Origin: a virus
IMG/VR virus record: IMGVR_UViG_3300025127_000171
Span: 1-29,894 of that record
Strand: one strand, 5' to 3'
DNA length: 29,894 nucleotides
A model generated the notes under the pieces. It was not told the DNA's origin. It saw nothing but the letters and a program-made list of their open reading frames with translations, and searched no databases. Below are positions 23,046 through 29,894 of this stretch, in pieces (position 1 is the first letter of the stretch; each line of letters opens with the position of its first letter). A program made the translations under genes and the position numbers.

Positions 23046-23524
23046 GTATTAGGAGATATATTAAAAAATGCGAGGAATTTAGAATTTGTGCCGCAAGAGG
23101 TGACAGAGCAGGTCTTGTGCTTCTTGAAAATACTGAAGAAACTGGTAAATCATTGTATACAATACAAGCAGAAGGTTCTGGTAGATTTTCTTCTATTTTT
23201 AATTCTGATTATATTGAGGGAAATGCTAACGGTGCTAACTTTGGATGTATGAAACCATATGCGGGAAAACATCTTATATTTGAATCCTATGAACCTTTCC
23301 TCCAGTATGGATTTAATGCCCTAAGTCCCAATCAAGATTGGGATGGTGAACTTGTAAAAGAATCATTTGATGGGGATGATAGAAGTTGGTTAATATGTTT
23401 TAAAGGTAATCCAATTATCAATGGTAAAGAATTGAAAATCATGGATTATGCAAAGTTAGAAAATAAATTCTATGATGTCAATTTAAATAATGCCATCGTA
23501 GGAGTATTTAAAAAATTATGGTAA
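23042..23524 (+). CDS. Unrecognised protein in the oxygenase operon, possibly a beta-barrel fold
   Basis: 160 aa, soluble, no membrane segment. Segments in order: RRYIKKCEEFRICAARGDR, a central part with GLVLLENTEETGKSLYTIQAEGSGRFS, then CMKPYAGKHLIFESYEPFLQ, SWLICFKGNPIINGKELKIM, and the end NNAIVGVFKKLW. The alternation of short strands and Gly turns would fit a cupin-like or other beta-barrel fold, but the usual cupin metal-binding His/Glu set is not obvious, so this is only a guess. It overlaps the upstream gene by four bases and the following oxygenase by seven. The context suggests it works with, or provides substrate to, the oxygenases. Confidence 0.65.
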   Translation: MSIRRYIKKCEEFRICAARGDRAGLVLLENTEETGKSLYTIQAEGSGRFSSIFNSDYIEGNANGANFGCMKPYAGKHLIFESYEPFLQYGFNALSPNQDWDGELVKESFDGDDRSWLICFKGNPIINGKELKIMDYAKLENKFYDVNLNNAIVGVFKKLW

Positions 23525-24075
23525 ACATTAATTTTGTTTCTATCTATGATAACGCATTGAGTGAAGAAGATTGTGAATTAATTATTGATGAGTTTGAAAA
23601 AAGTTCTAATAAATCACCGGGTTGGTGCGATGATGGTGTTCATGAAAATATTAAAAAATCTACAGATGTTACATACGATATAATGGATACTAATGATACT
23701 ACATTAATTATAGGCGCACGTTTAGAGGAGTATATGAAAAAATATATTGAAGAATATCCAGACGTGGATACAATGTTAAGATCGTGGTCATGTGTGAAAG
23801 GTTTTAATATACAAAAATATCAACCTAATGAAGGATTTTTTAAAAATCACTGCGAGAATTTGTGCAAAGATTCCTCGCATCGTGTTTTAGTTTGGATGTT
23901 CTATCTAAATACAGTACCTGATGGTGGCACGATATTCCCTACACTTGATATTAAAATTGAAGCAATCATGGGTAGGTTAGTAATCTGGCCAGCATATTGG
24001 ACTCATGTTCATAGAGGTGAGATTAGTAAATCTCACATTAAGTATGTTGCCACAGGTTGGCACTCGTATGATTAA
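23518..24075 (+). CDS. 2OG-Fe(II) oxygenase, prolyl-4-hydroxylase-like
   Basis: 185 aa. The metal site is visible as His111-x-Glu113 in GFFKNHCEN and the distal His165 in WTHVHRG. Lys175 in KYVATGW is in the place that binds 2-oxoglutarate. Between them lies the family stretch MFYLNTVPDGGTIFPT, then GRLVIWPAYWTHVHRG, characteristic of the P4H-like branch frequent in cyanophages. The first iron ligand set is HxE instead of the commoner HxD, which is tolerated in some relatives. The reaction expected is hydroxylation of a protein side chain or small molecule, using O2 and 2-oxoglutarate with release of succinate and CO2. It overlaps the upstream gene by seven bases. Substrate unknown; virion proteins with Pro- or Gly-rich segments are nearby candidates. 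Confidence 0.8.
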   Translation: MVNINFVSIYDNALSEEDCELIIDEFEKSSNKSPGWCDDGVHENIKKSTDVTYDIMDTNDTTLIIGARLEEYMKKYIEEYPDVDTMLRSWSCVKGFNIQKYQPNEGFFKNHCENLCKDSSHRVLVWMFYLNTVPDGGTIFPTLDIKIEAIMGRLVIWPAYWTHVHRGEISKSHIKYVATGWHSYD

Positions 24076-24076
24076 A

Positions 24077-24772
24077 ATGTCATTAAAAATAACAGACAAC
24101 GTAACCACAATCGAAAAAGAGGTTCAAGATGGTGATTTTGATTTAAATTTAAAAGATCACATATTACATCTACCATCTTTTATCAACCCTGATATTTGTC
24201 AAGATGTGGTGAAAAATTTAAAAAATACAGGACTTGACAAATCAGCACCGTATACTGATGGATTGCTAAATGATTATACAGATTCTTATTTTGACCCTAA
24301 TATACCTTCAATTTCACATATAAAAAATAAAGTGAGTAAAGATGCTCTAAATTTATACGCAGAAAAGGTAAGAGGGTATAATTGGTCTTATCATAAATCA
24401 GATAAATTTTTTGCCTCTGAAATGATAGTCAGAAGGTATAATGATAAATCAGAATTCAATTATCATTATGATGATATAGTAGGAGAAATATTCCCTCAAT
24501 GGTTTGTTAGAAGAAAGAATATATTAACGTGTAATGTATATTTGAATGATGATAATGAGTATGAGGGTGGTGATTTGCATTTTGCATCTTGTAATCTTTC
24601 ATTAAAACCAAAGATAGGTGATGTTGTTATTTCACCGTCTAATTGGATGTTCTTTCATAAAGTAAATGAAATCACATCTGGTGTGAGATACTCAGGTACA
24701 TATTGGTATTATTATGGGTCAGATAAAAAAGTAGCAAAACGAGCTAGTCATGACGAGAATTTTTTGAAATGA
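24077..24772 (+). CDS. 2OG-Fe(II) oxygenase (HxD...H...R)
   Basis: 231 aa from ATG 24077. An in-frame ATG at 24068 would add three residues, and one at 24005 would need a 71-base overlap with the upstream gene; the two nearer starts fit the spacing better. The iron ligands are His130-x-Asp132 in FNYHYDD and His194 in MFFHKV, and the 2-oxoglutarate Arg is Arg204 in SGVRYSGTYW. The stretch NVYLNDDNEYEGGDLHF followed by GDVVISPSNWMFFHKVNEITSGVRY is the textbook double-stranded beta-helix core of the 2OG-FeII_Oxy group. It is a separate lineage from the preceding P4H-like protein. Its stop overlaps the next ATG (ATGA, 24769-24772). The substrate is not deducible; an adjacent unknown gene may be a partner. 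Confidence 0.8.
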   Translation: MSLKITDNVTTIEKEVQDGDFDLNLKDHILHLPSFINPDICQDVVKNLKNTGLDKSAPYTDGLLNDYTDSYFDPNIPSISHIKNKVSKDALNLYAEKVRGYNWSYHKSDKFFASEMIVRRYNDKSEFNYHYDDIVGEIFPQWFVRRKNILTCNVYLNDDNEYEGGDLHFASCNLSLKPKIGDVVISPSNWMFFHKVNEITSGVRYSGTYWYYYGSDKKVAKRASHDENFLK

Positions 24773-25437
24773 TTAGATATACAATGTTAGAGACACAAAT
24801 ATCTGAAGGACATCATACATCCTGTCATTTTTGTTTTGATAAATTTGAGGGATCACTTGACAGAGGATTAGATTTATCAAAGTACGAACTTTCAATTACA
24901 GATCCAAGAACACATTTTCACGTTCACTATTTAAATCGTGATGGTGATTATATTGACAAAAAAGTTTTAGATGCGTACGATATAAATGTTGACTTTCCAG
25001 TTATATTTTTTGGAAGAGAGTTACCCTTTAGGGATGGATTTAGATGTGCATTTCATCTAAGCACTTTGAAAAAATTAAAGTCACCCTTCGTGAGAGATGT
25101 TGTCAAGATTATTAAATTATTTAAAGGAAATTTCATTGATGTTATACTTGCAAGTGAATTTACACAGGATGGTGTGATAAGAGACAGTCACATAAATATC
25201 GAGATTATTCCGCACATGAAAAATCACTACGAGATAAGTAAAATATTAGAAAAAAACTTTGAGTTGCCTAAACTAGATTACTTTATAGAAAGTTTTGATG
25301 ATTATAATGAGAAAGATTTTGCGTGGCATATTAAAATAAAGTTATTCCGATATTATAAGAAACCCTTAGTTAAATTTTACAAAACATATCCTAACAATCC
25401 GTACCTACAATATAAACATCATGATAAGCAAAACTGA
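24769..25437 (+). CDS. Unrecognised protein inside the oxygenase operon
   Basis: 222 aa, soluble, rich in aromatic residues, His and Lys. The first part has several His residues (EGHHTSCHFCFD; DPRTHFHVHYLNRDGDY). The middle has FPVIFFGRELPFRDGFRCAFHL and then helical KLKSPFVRDVVKIIKLFKGNFIDVILASEF. The C-terminal part is Lys/Tyr-rich. No HxD...H...R arrangement of the 2OG type can be followed with confidence, and no other known motif is seen. It overlaps the preceding oxygenase by four bases and the next by 17. The strict coupling suggests a shared pathway with the oxygenases, but no function is proposed. Confidence 0.65.
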   Translation: MIRYTMLETQISEGHHTSCHFCFDKFEGSLDRGLDLSKYELSITDPRTHFHVHYLNRDGDYIDKKVLDAYDINVDFPVIFFGRELPFRDGFRCAFHLSTLKKLKSPFVRDVVKIIKLFKGNFIDVILASEFTQDGVIRDSHINIEIIPHMKNHYEISKILEKNFELPKLDYFIESFDDYNEKDFAWHIKIKLFRYYKKPLVKFYKTYPNNPYLQYKHHDKQN

Positions 25438-25978
25438 TTTAAAAAATTTATACGAGTGGGCAAAGGATAAGGATTTTCCTATTAGAAAGACATCTGTATA
25501 TCCACAGTCAATATATAAAAAAAGTTCAAGTGGATATTATAAAAAATCTTATGGAACTGATAAAATTCATTCATATTCTAATAAAGAAATTTATAGTTTT
25601 CCTCTTAAGTTTGGTCGTAAGAAACCAATTATTCGTGAAAGTTTAATTCCATCAAATATTATCAATATATTAAGGAATGAAGAGATATTATATACAGTTG
25701 TCTCAATATTTCAGAGTGAAACTTTCTTAAAACCACATCGTGACCCACACATATATCAATTTCCATATAAGAGAATACAAATACCATTGGAGATACCAGA
25801 TAAAAATAAATGTTATATGGAATGGATTGATATTAAAGGTGGAAGAATAAATTGGGAAGAAGGTATACCACAAGTTTGTGATGTTATGCACCATACTCAT
25901 CAGGCATACAACAAATCAGATAAAGAAATGGTTATAATGATGATAGATGTAAAAATGGATACTGAGGTCGAGTTATGA
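25421..25978 (+). CDS. Aspartyl/asparaginyl beta-hydroxylase-like 2OG oxygenase
   Basis: 185 aa. The core resembles the Asp/Asn hydroxylase family. His106-x-Asp108 lies in FLKPHRDPHIYQFPYKRIQIPLEI, where 'lkpHrDp......R.hipLe.p' is typical. The distal metal His160 is in HHTHQAYNKSDKEMVIMMIDV, matching the usual 'H.aWN.s...R..l..Dv' segment, with Lys168 in place of the more usual Arg. A Trp/Glu segment, GGRINWEEGIP, precedes it. Family members hydroxylate Asp/Asn side chains in proteins, or related small molecules. It overlaps the upstream unknown by 17 bases and the next gene by four (ATGA). The N-terminal 65 residues are Lys/Tyr/Ser-rich and unassigned. Confidence 0.75.
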   Translation: MISKTDLKNLYEWAKDKDFPIRKTSVYPQSIYKKSSSGYYKKSYGTDKIHSYSNKEIYSFPLKFGRKKPIIRESLIPSNIINILRNEEILYTVVSIFQSETFLKPHRDPHIYQFPYKRIQIPLEIPDKNKCYMEWIDIKGGRINWEEGIPQVCDVMHHTHQAYNKSDKEMVIMMIDVKMDTEVEL

Positions 25979-26583
25979 AAATTGATTATAATGTGGAAAA
26001 TATTTTTCCTGTGCCAATACACATTATTGATATTGATAATTTCTCATCACTACAGAAAAAGTTAATTTATTTGGCATACAAAGAGGAAAAAAGAAGTCAG
26101 GGTCAGGGTAGAAAAGCATCAAACGTAGGTGGTTATCAATCATTTCCATTTCAACTACGAGAAAGAAATGATAAATTGAGTCAAGTTCTCTTGGGTATTT
26201 TAAGTAATCTACCTTGCTTTGAAGAATCAATTGAAATTGAGTCGAGTGCTTGGATAAACATTAATAAACCTGGTGACTCTAATCAAAATCATAATCACCC
26301 TGCTACAAATCTTGCAGGAGTTCTATGGATTAAGATACCTGAGAACTCTGGTAATATAAAATTTTTATCACCTTACAATTTCTCATCTTACGGTGAAATT
26401 CATTCTTATACAGAGGATTTTAAACTGATGACAAAATATTATTATGATTATGTTTTTGAACCAAAGGAAGGCAGTATGATAATTTTCCCTGCACATTTGA
26501 TTCATAAAGTAGAGGAAAATAAGTCTGATGAAGATAGAATATCTGTATCATTTAACATAGATTTGCATGGTTATCTTAGTTAA
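25975..26583 (+). CDS. 2OG-Fe(II) oxygenase of the TIGR02466/Oxy_5 type
   Basis: 202 aa. The family pattern is clear: SAWININKPGDSNQNHNHPATNLAGVLWIKIPENSGN in the middle (about 91-127), then GSMIIFPAHLIHKVEENKSDEDRISVSFNID at the end. The expected metal ligands are His106 and/or His108 with distal His177, and Arg188 for the co-substrate. This group uses an 'N.pG..n..H.Hp.s.lsGv.yi' signature that differs from the other three oxygenases of the operon. It is the last gene of the operon. Downstream is a 118-base gap with the next promoter and only a weak 5-bp hairpin (CATAC/GTATG, 26600-26613), so how transcription stops here is unclear. The substrate is unknown. Confidence 0.8.
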   Translation: MKIDYNVENIFPVPIHIIDIDNFSSLQKKLIYLAYKEEKRSQGQGRKASNVGGYQSFPFQLRERNDKLSQVLLGILSNLPCFEESIEIESSAWININKPGDSNQNHNHPATNLAGVLWIKIPENSGNIKFLSPYNFSSYGEIHSYTEDFKLMTKYYYDYVFEPKEGSMIIFPAHLIHKVEENKSDEDRISVSFNIDLHGYLS

Positions 26584-26650: not shown

Positions 26651-26678
26651 TTGACAACCACGAAATTTATTGTATAAT
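26651..26678 (+). promoter_or_regulatory. Consensus sigma70 promoter before the ParB-like gene
   Basis: A perfect -35 TTGACA (26651-26656) and a perfect -10 TATAAT (26673-26678) are separated by 16 bases. Transcription would start near 26685, leaving a leader of about 17 bases before the ATG at 26702, with no clear Shine-Dalgarno sequence. It marks the change from virion and oxygenase genes to DNA-metabolism genes and would be used by host RNA polymerase early in infection. The rest of the 118-base gap holds only AT-rich sequence and a weak hairpin. Confidence 0.75.
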
Positions 26679-26701: not shown

Positions 26702-27901
26702 ATGGAATCTTATATTGAGTCTGATTTTTCTGCAATAGATAATTCTTTAATAGGTAAAATTGATATGAGTAAAGTTGAAATTAACGAAAACTTATTATTT
26801 AATTCCGATCTACTAGAAAAATGTAGAATTTTCAGTCCACCAATAGCTCCAAGTTTGAAGGGATATGGAAAACTTGTTGAAGATCAACTTCAATTAATTG
26901 ACATGAGACAAGTTCATCCTGCTGGAAGAGAAATAAGAAATAAGAAGACAGGTGAAGTTTTACCAAAAGGATTTCAAGTAAGGACAGATATTACGATAGA
27001 TCATGGAAATCGTGATGCAATATTACAAGACATTGAGCAAAATGATTGGAACTCACATGCTAAACAGATAATATTATTTTTACTGCCAGATGAGTTTAAA
27101 TATTGGAAAGATGGTGTAGAGGTAATTTACGGTATATTAGATGGCAACCATAGATATGATGCTGCGAGTATGGCGGCACAGGAAAACATAATCGCTTGGT
27201 TAGTTGACATTCCGCTTAAGAAGTTAAGAAAATATGGTAATGCAGAAGCAAATCGTCAACAAAATTCATCAAAACCAAGATCAAATCAAGATATTGCAGA
27301 TTCAATAAAAATTGATTTAGATGATTCTACTACTCAACTATCTAAAGATGTCAAAAAGGCAGAGGATGATGATGAATTGGATGTAAGAGAAGTTTTAAGT
27401 AGAGAATTAGATGACTATCATGTGCATCCAAAAACAAAACATCCGATTATAAGAATTATTATTGATGAATCTAATATAGTTGTTGATAGAAAAGATTATG
27501 ATGCAAAAACAAGAGAATATTATGTGTCAGAATTTTGCACTTCATGGATTAAAGTCAAAGGAAAAGATTGGGATTATGAAACAACAGACGGAGTACGAGT
27601 TATTTTGATTGAAGCATCTGGTTCAAATGACCTGATAGTTTCAGGAAAAATTAGTAGGATGCAAAATTCAAATGTACCCATATCTATTTGTTTCTCTAAT
27701 GCAAAGGGTCAAAAGGTAACAAAAGATAATCGTGATAAAATTCGTAGACAATTTATGGAAAAGGTTTTCAAGAATATAAGAGTTATTGGAGAAGCAGATC
27801 AAAAATTATTCATAAAGAAAAATGGAGTTATCCCATCATTCGAGTGTCTTCCCGAACTAGCAGATGAACTTGAGACGAATAAACTAATCAGAGTAATTTA
27901 G
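26702..27901 (+). CDS. ParB-like (ParB/sulfiredoxin superfamily) DNA-associated protein
   Basis: 399 aa. The segment YGILDGNHRYDAASMAA (residues 143-159) is the ParB 'G.HR..Aa' box. It is preceded by LIDMRQVHPAGREIRN and DITIDHGNRDAIL, the order seen in ParB N-terminal domains. A helix-turn-helix-like stretch, RSNQDIADSIKIDLDD, lies at about 193-208. The C-terminal half (about 215-399) is unassigned, with PIIRIIIDES, an acidic region, and a Lys/Arg-rich segment KVTKDNRDKIRRQFMEK. Such proteins act as DNA-binding CTPases, nucleases or adaptors, and phage ParB-like genes often lie beside DNA methyltransferases. Here a nuclease and a methyltransferase follow at once. It has its own consensus promoter and is closed by a strong terminator. 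Its exact role is unclear. Confidence 0.7.
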   Translation: MESYIESDFSAIDNSLIGKIDMSKVEINENLLFNSDLLEKCRIFSPPIAPSLKGYGKLVEDQLQLIDMRQVHPAGREIRNKKTGEVLPKGFQVRTDITIDHGNRDAILQDIEQNDWNSHAKQIILFLLPDEFKYWKDGVEVIYGILDGNHRYDAASMAAQENIIAWLVDIPLKKLRKYGNAEANRQQNSSKPRSNQDIADSIKIDLDDSTTQLSKDVKKAEDDDELDVREVLSRELDDYHVHPKTKHPIIRIIIDESNIVVDRKDYDAKTREYYVSEFCTSWIKVKGKDWDYETTDGVRVILIEASGSNDLIVSGKISRMQNSNVPISICFSNAKGQKVTKDNRDKIRRQFMEKVFKNIRVIGEADQKLFIKKNGVIPSFECLPELADELETNKLIRVI

Positions 27902-27920
27902 ACAATTAAATAAGTGTCAC

Positions 27921-27947
27921 ATCCCTCTACACAGAGGGATTTTTTTT
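27921..27947 (+). terminator. Strong Rho-independent terminator after the ParB-like gene
   Basis: ATCCCTCT (27921-27928) and AGAGGGAT (27933-27940) form a perfect 8-bp stem with an ACAC loop. A run of eight T residues (27940-27947) follows. It lies 20 bases after the stop codon and directly in front of an extended -10 promoter, so it isolates the ParB-like gene from the nuclease gene. Confidence 0.9.
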
Positions 27948-27955
27948 GCTATAAT
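27947..27955 (+). promoter_or_regulatory. Extended -10 promoter (TGCTATAAT) for the nuclease-methyltransferase pair
   Basis: The sequence TGCTATAAT (27947-27955) is a perfect extended -10 element. No good -35 is present; the expected place is taken by the terminator hairpin. Transcription would start near 27962. An AGGAAC ribosome site lies about 9 bases before the ATG at 27986. An almost identical element (TGCTATGAT) precedes the helicase gene. Confidence 0.6.
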
Positions 27956-27985
27956 TAATTTGTACACACAACAGGAACGAACATC

Positions 27986-28525
27986 ATGTTAAATGAAATG
28001 TTTGCCGATGGTTCATTACAGAACTATATTAGCACAAATCTAGCAGACCCTTGGATTGACACACCTTTTGAAGGTTATGTCTATATGTCTCCAAAACAAA
28101 AAGGAGAGTTTGGAGAGAGATTTACGTCAAAATATTTAAAATTGTTAGGATTTGACGTAAAGAGAGCAAAGACATCTACAGCAGGTCATGACAGAATTGT
28201 CTCTAAAATACTAACTGAGATGAAATTTTCTCTTGCAACTAGAGATAAATCTAAAGGTGGTGTTATCTTTGATAAGTTTATTATCAATCATGTTTCATCT
28301 GGAAAAGATTGGGAGAGACTTATTTTTGTAGGCATCAATGAGAAGGAAGAGGACATGAGAGTTATCTGGTTCACTAAAGATGACTTCAATAATCATATTC
28401 AATCTGACAAATCACTTTTCAATGTTCAACAAGGTGGAAAGGGAGTTGGCAACGATGATTACATTTGCACAAAAGTTGAATCTCTGCTACAATGTGATTG
28501 GGTTAAGAGTATTAATTTATGGTAG
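27986..28525 (+). CDS. PD-(D/E)xK nuclease, probable restriction endonuclease of a phage R-M pair
   Basis: 179 aa. The region KQKGEFGERFTSKYLKLLGFDVKRAKTSTAGHDRIV then TEMKFSLATR shows the layout of a PD-(D/E)xK nuclease. A helix with Glu41/Glu44 is followed by Asp69 and then Glu78-x-Lys80 on the next strand. Such folds are common in Type II restriction enzymes and Holliday or repair nucleases. The C-terminal part is beta/alpha with Trp and Gly-rich segments (NVQQGGKGVGNDDYICTKV). It overlaps the methyltransferase gene by seven bases, so the two are translated together, which is the classic organisation of a restriction-modification pair. It is expressed from its own extended -10 promoter after a terminator. 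An alternative is a free-standing host-DNA-degrading nuclease protected by the methyltransferase. The recognition sequence cannot be predicted. Confidence 0.65.
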   Translation: MLNEMFADGSLQNYISTNLADPWIDTPFEGYVYMSPKQKGEFGERFTSKYLKLLGFDVKRAKTSTAGHDRIVSKILTEMKFSLATRDKSKGGVIFDKFIINHVSSGKDWERLIFVGINEKEEDMRVIWFTKDDFNNHIQSDKSLFNVQQGGKGVGNDDYICTKVESLLQCDWVKSINLW

Positions 28526-29241
28526 ATTTACGTTTGGGAGATTGTTTAGATATTCTCCCAACAATACCTGATAATAGTATTGATATGGTAATGGTTGATT
28601 TACCATACGGAACTACTGCTTGCAAGTGGGATAGTATCATCCCACTTGATTTTTTATGGGAACAATATAATCGTATTTGTGAAGATAATGCAGCGATGGT
28701 ATTTACCGCAGCACAACCTTTTACCACAATACTTGCATCATCTAATATACAGAACTTTAAGTATGAGTGGATATGGGAAAAACCACAGGGAACTAACCCT
28801 ATGAACGCTAAAGTGATGCCATTAAAATCACATGAAAATATATTAGTTTTTTATAGAAGTAAACCAACATATAATCCCCAAATGTGGTATTCTACACCTT
28901 ATAGTGGGTTTAGTTCTGATGTATCAAAGATAGGAGAAGTATATGGTAGTCAAAAATCAAAGCACAGAGATAATCCAGAGGGTTCTAGGTATCCTAAAAC
29001 AATATTAAAGTACAAACAAGAAAAAGGTTTACATCCAACACAAAAACCAGTAGGATTGATGGAGTATTTAATCAAAACTTATACAAATGAGGGAGATAGT
29101 GTTCTTGATAATACAATGGGGTCAGGAACTACAGGAGTTGCATGTGTTAATTGCAATCGTAACTTCACAGGTATCGAGTCGGACAAAAAATACTTTGACA
29201 TTGCAAAAGAAAGAATAGAAGTTGGAAAGTTACCAATTTAG
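28519..29241 (+). CDS. Beta-class DNA methyltransferase (N6-adenine or N4-cytosine)
   Basis: 240 aa. Catalytic motif IV DLPY is at residues 27-30 (MVDLPYGTTACKWD), near the N-terminus. The LHPTQKPVGLMEYLI segment is at 171-185, and the AdoMet-binding motif I DNTMGSGTTG is at 197-206. Motif IV before motif I is the beta-class order, and DLPY is compatible with N6-adenine or N4-cytosine methylation. The motif I variant DNTMGSGTT replaces the usual DPF.GSGTT. The gene overlaps the nuclease by seven bases (28519-28525). The size is typical of compact phage enzymes, with little room for a target-recognition domain (about residues 90-165). Likely role: protect phage DNA against the partner nuclease, or against host restriction. 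Confidence 0.8.
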   Translation: MVDLRLGDCLDILPTIPDNSIDMVMVDLPYGTTACKWDSIIPLDFLWEQYNRICEDNAAMVFTAAQPFTTILASSNIQNFKYEWIWEKPQGTNPMNAKVMPLKSHENILVFYRSKPTYNPQMWYSTPYSGFSSDVSKIGEVYGSQKSKHRDNPEGSRYPKTILKYKQEKGLHPTQKPVGLMEYLIKTYTNEGDSVLDNTMGSGTTGVACVNCNRNFTGIESDKKYFDIAKERIEVGKLPI

Positions 29242-29404: not shown

Positions 29405-29894
29405 ATGCAACTAAGACCCCACCAAAAGCAAGCAATACAGGCAATGATTGACAATGACAAAGGTCAAGTCATCGTACCTACAGGTGGTGGTAAGACTATC
29501 TGTATGATACAGGATGCCAAGAGACAGTTTGAGAGTGAAGCATGTAGCACCATTGTGGTTGTTGCACCTCGTATTCTATTGGCAAACCAGTTGTCAGCAG
29601 AGTTTCTTGAGTTCATCACTAATGTCAAAGTGATGCACGTTCATAGTGGAGAGACACATCATTTCAGTTCAACTAAGGTTGATGCTATTAGAGAGTTCAA
29701 CTTCCACAATGCCAATGATGGTCACAACCAGTTGATATTCACAACATATCATTCACTACACAGAATCGCTGAGAGTAATATTGTTGTTGATACTATCTAC
29801 TTTGATGAAGCACACAACTCAGTTCAGAAAAACTTTTTCCCTGCTGTTGAGCATATATCAACCAGTATCTTTACCAGAGCATACTTCTTTACTG
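29405..29894 (+). CDS. DEAH-box SF2 helicase (3' truncated by window end)
   Basis: The first 163 codons are visible. The N-terminus MQLRPHQKQAIQAM is a Q-motif-like start. Walker A is PTGGGKT (residues 25-31), motif Ia lies in VVVAPRILLANQL (about 51-63), TTYHSL is at 113-118, and motif II DEAH is at 134-137. The window ends just where motif III would follow. This is the helicase arrangement of SF2 enzymes such as UvsW, RadD or the Type III restriction Res subunit; compact relatives are common in marine T4-like phages. Its role would be ATP-driven remodelling of DNA or RNA in replication or recombination. ATG 29405 is the first in-frame start, with no Shine-Dalgarno sequence. The palindrome at 29378-29393 lies just before it and may control it. 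The C-terminal domain is unseen, so the subfamily stays open. Confidence 0.8.
   Translation, partial: MQLRPHQKQAIQAMIDNDKGQVIVPTGGGKTICMIQDAKRQFESEACSTIVVVAPRILLANQLSAEFLEFITNVKVMHVHSGETHHFSSTKVDAIREFNFHNANDGHNQLIFTTYHSLHRIAESNIVVDTIYFDEAHNSVQKNFFPAVEHISTSIFTRAYFFT

Follow-up and report, generated by a model that had tools for sequence, protein, structure and literature searches.

The module at positions 26,702 to 29,241 of the IMG/VR virus record IMGVR_UViG_3300025127_000171 (29,894 bases, analysed as a whole and in the following called the window) probably contains a phage-borne, type II-like restriction-modification (R-M) system with the site TCGA, a reading to which we assign a probability of about 0.78. 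Three genes are arranged head to tail on the plus strand, encoding a ParB-like protein (399 amino acids, 26,702 to 27,901), a PD-(D/E)xK nuclease designated R (179 amino acids, 27,986 to 28,525), which is the candidate TCGA endonuclease, and a beta-class N6/N4 DNA methyltransferase designated M (240 amino acids, 28,519 to 29,241), the candidate TCGA methyltransferase. The genes of R and M overlap by 7 bases (28,519 to 28,525). An earlier note on the window had described this nuclease-methyltransferase pair, and its open reading frames, coordinates and overlap were all found as given there. The closest named relatives, AG-345-E15 and Prochlorococcus phage P-SSM7, are both marine.

The assignment of the site is based on the genomes of R carriers. 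In IMG/VR, 124 relatives of R were found and 80 were kept; a close M is located beside R in 50 of these loci (R+M+), while none is located beside R in the remaining 30 (R+M-). As controls, 80 loci were fetched with the neighbouring helicase, none of them containing R. Expected counts at the loci were calculated with a maximum-order Markov model. TCGA was found 13 times in the R+M- loci, where 353 were expected, and was missing completely from 25 of the 30. The R+M+ loci contained 308 of 951 expected sites (zero in 6 of 50), while TCGA was kept in 79 of the 80 R-free control loci and absent from one. Among 136 distinct four-letter words, TCGA was the most depleted compared to the controls (z -20.0), followed by CGCA (-8.2). 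Loci were dereplicated by grouping at 90% identity, and clusters with an expectation below 5 were dropped (one R+M-, no R+M+, four control and four clusters of R'', a second candidate nuclease described below). Zero TCGA was counted in 8 of 9 R+M-, 3 of 30 R+M+, 1 of 46 control and 12 of 13 R'' clusters (Fisher's test on clusters: 6.5e-8 for R+M- and 1.5e-10 for R'' compared to the controls, 2.2e-5 for R+M- compared to R+M+).

The same distribution was seen in longer sequences. S-SSM4, which encodes R without an adjacent M, contains none of 328 expected TCGA, and G017, of the same constitution and without any PF01555 methylase in its 177,686 bases, contains 3 of 263. These only three sites are located within 861 bases (70,681 to 71,542), which suggests recently acquired DNA. 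Other long genomes without adjacent M were free of TCGA as well (G015, 0/85; G020, 0/53; G025, 0/29). P-SSM7, with both R and M, holds 256 of 337 expected sites; the R+M+ contigs G005 (27/94) and G010 (15/99) are intermediate. In R-free whole phages (n = 15, each represented by 20- to 50-kb stretches) and in ACG-2014a, the ratio of observed to expected TCGA ranged from 0.58 to 1.18, with the exception of ACG-2014d. Two phages isolated on the same host, Synechococcus WH8109, differ from each other: S-SSM6b encodes R without a close M and is identical to S-SSM4 over 20 kb, while S-SSM6a is devoid of R and shows a ratio of 0.75.

Other assignments of the site were rejected. GATC had been considered on account of D12 (Dam-type) methylases in the vicinity of several R genes and was dismissed, since GATC is not avoided and dam is also annotated in the R-free P-SSM4. 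The second methylase of the P-SSM7 type, regarded as a possible rescuer of TCGA, is also encoded in S-SSM4, where TCGA is absent. The site of M was not read off its family either, as the beta class includes phage enzymes of different specificity; M.Phi145I, for example, which may not be a close relative of M, is listed with GGWGA in PMC4190342.

In profile searches, R matched no Pfam or NCBIfam model. It belongs to phrog_6927 ('unknown function', E 2e-74) and matched the type II restriction endonuclease profile REase_II PDLC03515 of PADLOC (E 5e-7). The AlphaFold2 model of R, calculated from an alignment of 33 rows from the window and IMG/VR, is confident (predicted local distance difference test, pLDDT, 89.9). 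Foldseek returned nothing under E 0.001 for this model. A second structural aligner placed the restriction endonucleases Eco15I (Z 9.6) and NhoI (Z 9.3) on top, followed by the homing endonuclease I-Ssp6803I (8.6), the restriction endonuclease 3ndh (8.1) and Holliday junction resolvases (up to 8.0), with DpnI (6.8) and PvuII (6.7) at lower scores. The putative catalytic residues D69 (28,190 to 28,192), E78 (28,217 to 28,219) and K80 (28,223 to 28,225) are invariant in all 39 rows of R, including two distant ones. The modelled fold supports R well as a restriction-type PD-(D/E)xK nuclease, an outcome in favour of the earlier note, which had named a structure prediction to the contrary as a refutation. 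Compared by sequence with solved structures, R and the ParB-like protein gave chance-level matches only. A scan of genome contigs for bacterial relatives of R yielded one short partial match in Pseudarthrobacter, which was not used.

M passes the PF01555 cut-off with 102.5 bits (cut-off 26.7). The motif order IV-X-I, read from the sequence, is that of the beta class (motif IV, DLPY, 28,597 to 28,608; motif I, DNTMGSGTTG, 29,107 to 29,136), and DpnA is the closest solved structure by sequence. Relatives of M numbered 429, the best 80 of which were kept; 38 of these share sequence with the set obtained with R. In all of these 80 closest relatives, M is adjoined either by R (68) or by R' (12), a protein unrelated to R with a length of 193 to 195 amino acids in the five measured. 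R or R' overlaps M in 77 of them and lies within 30 bases in the other three; the 7-base overlap of R and M is the same in 56. The gene pair proposed in the earlier note, for which co-occurrence elsewhere had been named as a check, is also found beyond the window.

A further candidate nuclease was found because of the exceptional phage among the controls. ACG-2014d contains no TCGA in 40 kb though it is R-free, and this anomaly led to R'', an open reading frame of 198 amino acids located directly behind the helicase, in the position that R occupies in S-SSM4. R'' contains residues of the D...E[VI]K type (GRDA...EKE[VI]KPKN). Its 28 relatives in IMG/VR hold 1 of 310 expected TCGA, with zero in 27 of the 28, and TCGA again ranked first among the 136 four-letter words. 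R'' was not present in any of the 80 R loci, and neither R'' nor R' was matched in Pfam or PADLOC. Judging from its motif and the pattern of site loss, R'' would be a nuclease as well.

In the mechanism proposed here, R would cut unmethylated TCGA, and M, produced from the same overlapping transcript, would methylate the TCGA sites of the phage, probably at the adenine. Incoming phage DNA would already have been methylated in the previous cell, which would allow R to be made early. Its targets would be the host chromosome, which lacks the methylation and whose breakdown would serve nucleotide supply and takeover, rival phages without the methylation, or both. Relatives without M that encode R or the unrelated R'' would survive because their own genomes are nearly free of TCGA. 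Going further, at least two and perhaps three unrelated nucleases (R, R'' and R') might cut TCGA in marine T4-like phages, with immunity provided either by M or by purging of the roughly 180-kb genome. Such a convergent self/non-self code has slightly better than even odds in our estimation. If it exists, the genome-wide lack of a short site would be a fingerprint of the phage's own nuclease, not of host restriction, and other purged sites, e.g. CCGG, may mark further undiscovered nucleases.

Several observations weigh against this interpretation or are exceptions to the pattern. ACG-2014f encodes R without a close M, yet has kept 335 of 418 expected TCGA. Its R is found on a long branch (0.33) and carries substitutions next to ExK (KFSLATR reads KFGVAIR there), and an apparently truncated, N6-methylase-like open reading frame of 134 amino acids is located just before R (L082:5516-5920); an altered R together with a truncated methylase might account for the case, as an after-the-fact explanation. 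The R+M+ loci contain on average less TCGA than the controls (0.33 compared to 0.65), six of the 50 having none, and in L060, L064 and L067 a different methylase-like open reading frame of 281 to 326 amino acids follows R while TCGA is still absent. The tree of R requires at least three changes of M presence but provides only three independent contrasts between loci with and without M, for which a sign test was not significant; the clusters used in the Fisher tests are likewise not fully independent. Two to four TCGA, often clustered, are present in 5 of the 30 R+M- loci. Distant relatives of R in S-BM3 and S-ShM2 (25 to 28% identical) showed no association with TCGA loss, and one short control locus without R (L197) has no TCGA where 11.2 were expected. 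No close R-free sister of G017 was found, the listed phages covering at most 11% of the query. Gene layout, nuclease fold, the family of M, linkage and site loss were observed; cleavage by R and methylation by M at TCGA we infer from genomic patterns, and likewise the exact base, the timing, the target and the role of the ParB-like protein. Finally, breakdown of host DNA is rapid in infections by the marine myoviruses Syn9 and P-HM2 (PMC7852597); since Syn9 is absent from the list of R carriers, R itself is not needed for quick degradation, though Syn9 or P-HM2 may carry one of the other nucleases.

The alternative that survives best concerns the target only and leaves the R-M mechanism as it is: the main role of the system might be the exclusion of rival phages at co-infection and not the destruction of host DNA. 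R-free phages, having kept TCGA, would be vulnerable to cleavage, and for the marseillevirus system Jeudy 2020 (PMC7253447) reports no host DNA degradation while rival DNA was cleavable. On the other hand, the host chromosome would be within reach wherever phage DNA is replicated, and a TCGA nuclease would hardly spare it unless host TCGA were methylated. Exclusion of rivals as the main role is conceivable, with the odds somewhat against it. TCGA might also have been lost independently of R, in hosts with TCGA restriction, R being a passenger. The absence of other palindromes (e.g. CCGG) from marine T4-like phages, regardless of whether R is present, fits this explanation, as does the partial depletion of TCGA at R+M+ loci. 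Against it, R-free phages keep TCGA, in 79 of 80 loci and in 14 of 15 whole phages, the fifteenth being ACG-2014d with R''. Moreover, S-SSM6a and S-SSM6b share one host strain and still differ in both R and TCGA, the same association is seen for the two unrelated genes R and R'', and the presence of M lifts the TCGA loss. We consider this explanation unlikely.

Less likely still is a required role of the ParB-like protein as a subunit that gives the nuclease its specificity or loads it, a partnership that the earlier note had thought possible. The linkage itself is real. A search of viral contigs with the single ParB-like protein as query found nothing, while a search with an alignment gave 14 IMG/VR loci. 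Four of them end in or shortly after the gene, and the other ten all encode M, which is accompanied by R in nine loci and by R' in the tenth (L227). A distant copy (L030, 38%) is directly followed by another PF01555 methylase. However, a ParB-like match was found in only 5 of the 80 R loci, many of which are short upstream, and phages with R alone have purged TCGA without this protein; a required subunit would be unlikely to be absent from most R-M loci. Of the module as originally proposed, the R-M pair is well supported by fold, linkage and TCGA pattern, while the ParB-like protein is unlikely to be a necessary partner. Last, M might be an anti-restriction methylase which R adjoins by chance as a homing or recombination nuclease, a reading that the fold matches of R to I-Ssp6803I (Z 8.6) and to Holliday junction resolvases (the best at Z 8.0) might suggest. 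It is very improbable in view of the conserved adjacency (77 of 80 overlapping and the rest within 30 bases, R and R' together) and the equally close tie of M to the unrelated R'; moreover, a homing nuclease would cut too rarely to drive a 4-base site out of a genome.

The ParB-like protein gave weak sequence matches only (phrog_1033, E 0.074; TIGR00180, E 0.013), and the quality of its model is low on the whole (pLDDT 62). In this model, residues 61 to 190 approximately, which precede a helical region, match Noc (Z 8.9) and ParB (Z 8.8) over 96 to 98 residues, and KorB was matched over a longer stretch (Z 7.8). A ParB/Noc fold can be assigned with low confidence. With regard to a GxxR-type motif, G148, H150 and R151 are invariant. 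The motif DGNHR pointed to DndB/DGQHR as a lead; no such family was found in Pfam or NCBIfam at E 0.1. Matches of the C-terminus to the PD-(D/E)xK fold (Z 4 to 5.7) were not used on account of the low pLDDT and the lack of a conserved ExK. As a guess, this R-M accessory protein could bind DNA and regulate the operon in the manner of KorB or Noc.

The ParB-like gene is preceded by a perfect sigma-70-type promoter-like site (TTGACA-16-TATAAT, 26,651 to 26,678, plus strand) and closed by a terminator-like hairpin with a T-run (27,921 to 27,940, plus strand), so that the promoter and terminator claimed for this gene in the earlier note were both located. The perfect promoter-like site was seen once, compared to 0.008 expected from mononucleotide shuffles of the region; promoter-like sites as a whole are no more frequent there than by chance (18 compared to 16.2), and terminator-like hairpins with a T-run numbered three (1.0 expected). 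A second promoter-like site with an extended -10 element, a match to the consensus only, precedes R on the plus strand (27,926 to 27,955; TG before TATAAT at 27,950 to 27,955). A hairpin with a 10-bp stem and a T-run at 28,623 to 28,648, within the beginning of the M coding sequence, is a possible internal attenuator. Downstream of M, the gene of a UvsW-type helicase starts on the plus strand and runs off the window (29,405 to 29,893); in relatives, R or the R-M pair is often located next to this helicase. Ahead of the module, a run of genes of the 2-oxoglutarate-Fe(II) oxygenase type and aspartyl-hydroxylase-like genes is located at 23,518 to 26,583.

Sites other than TCGA are also scarce in part of the phages. 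CCGG is missing from most of the sampled marine T4-like phages irrespective of R, GCGC and CGCG are missing from P-SSM7, G005 and the P-RSM6 stretches, and low values were seen for GATC in S-RIM8 (0.15) and for AGCT in P-RSM1 (0.06). Phage nucleases of other kinds may be behind these shortfalls.

Cyanomyoviruses are devoid of denA, ndd and denB, and a less efficient or undescribed degradation of host DNA was suggested for them in the portion available of a 2010 review (PMC2984593). A phage-borne TCGA nuclease would be a concrete candidate for this function in the phages carrying it. Losing the site would protect a phage from its own nuclease without any methylation, as an alternative to M, and TCGA becomes the candidate specificity for phrog_6927, R' and R'', so far unassigned in the libraries searched. 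The avoidance of palindromes by phages, usually read as a result of host restriction, could in part reflect nucleases that the phages themselves encode. Virus-borne R-M pairs as such are already known, and an annotated pair exists in cyanophages, namely ACG-2014a and relatives. A literature search, largely without subscription papers, found neither a published TCGA system of cyanophages nor a published phage nuclease whose carriers without methyltransferase are purged of its site genome-wide, with the pattern repeated for an unrelated nuclease.

Among known systems, the CTP-dependent DNA clamps KorB, Noc and ParB resemble the ParB-like protein in the modelled N-terminal fold, while its C-terminal part is divergent in the low-confidence model (pLDDT 62). 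The R-M systems of chloroviruses and marseilleviruses are likewise virus-borne pairs encoded side by side, for which recycling of host DNA or exclusion of rivals was proposed; unlike the module described here, they belong to viruses of eukaryotes, and the site is GATC in marseilleviruses, as stated in the accessible sections of PMC7253447. In the same sections of this marseillevirus account, no site-purged relatives with the nuclease alone were found. Bacterial type II R-M systems share with the module a small PD-(D/E)xK nuclease beside a beta-class methyltransferase and, by our inference, a common 4-base palindrome as site, but here the pair is borne by a T4-like phage, and relatives without an adjacent M occur in site-purged genomes. 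The cyanophages ACG-2014a, S-RIM12 and S-MbCM100 encode a pair annotated as 'restriction endonuclease' and 'DNA adenine methylase', the latter 46% identical to M. The pair of ACG-2014a is located in the same slot before the UvsW-type helicase; however, its nuclease does not match R, and TCGA is not lost in this phage. The ACG-2014a nuclease was also considered as a relative of R' and rejected, BLASTP having shown no kinship. The pair corresponds to KJ019163 (L144:4394-5756), and its nuclease is present in 41 phage records, one of them a Mycoplasma phage. Phage T4 degrades host DNA with the endonucleases DenA and DenB and tells the two kinds of DNA apart by modified cytosine. An R-M system would similarly enable a T4-like phage to cut host DNA and spare its own, with the difference that discrimination would be achieved here by methylation of TCGA or by its absence.

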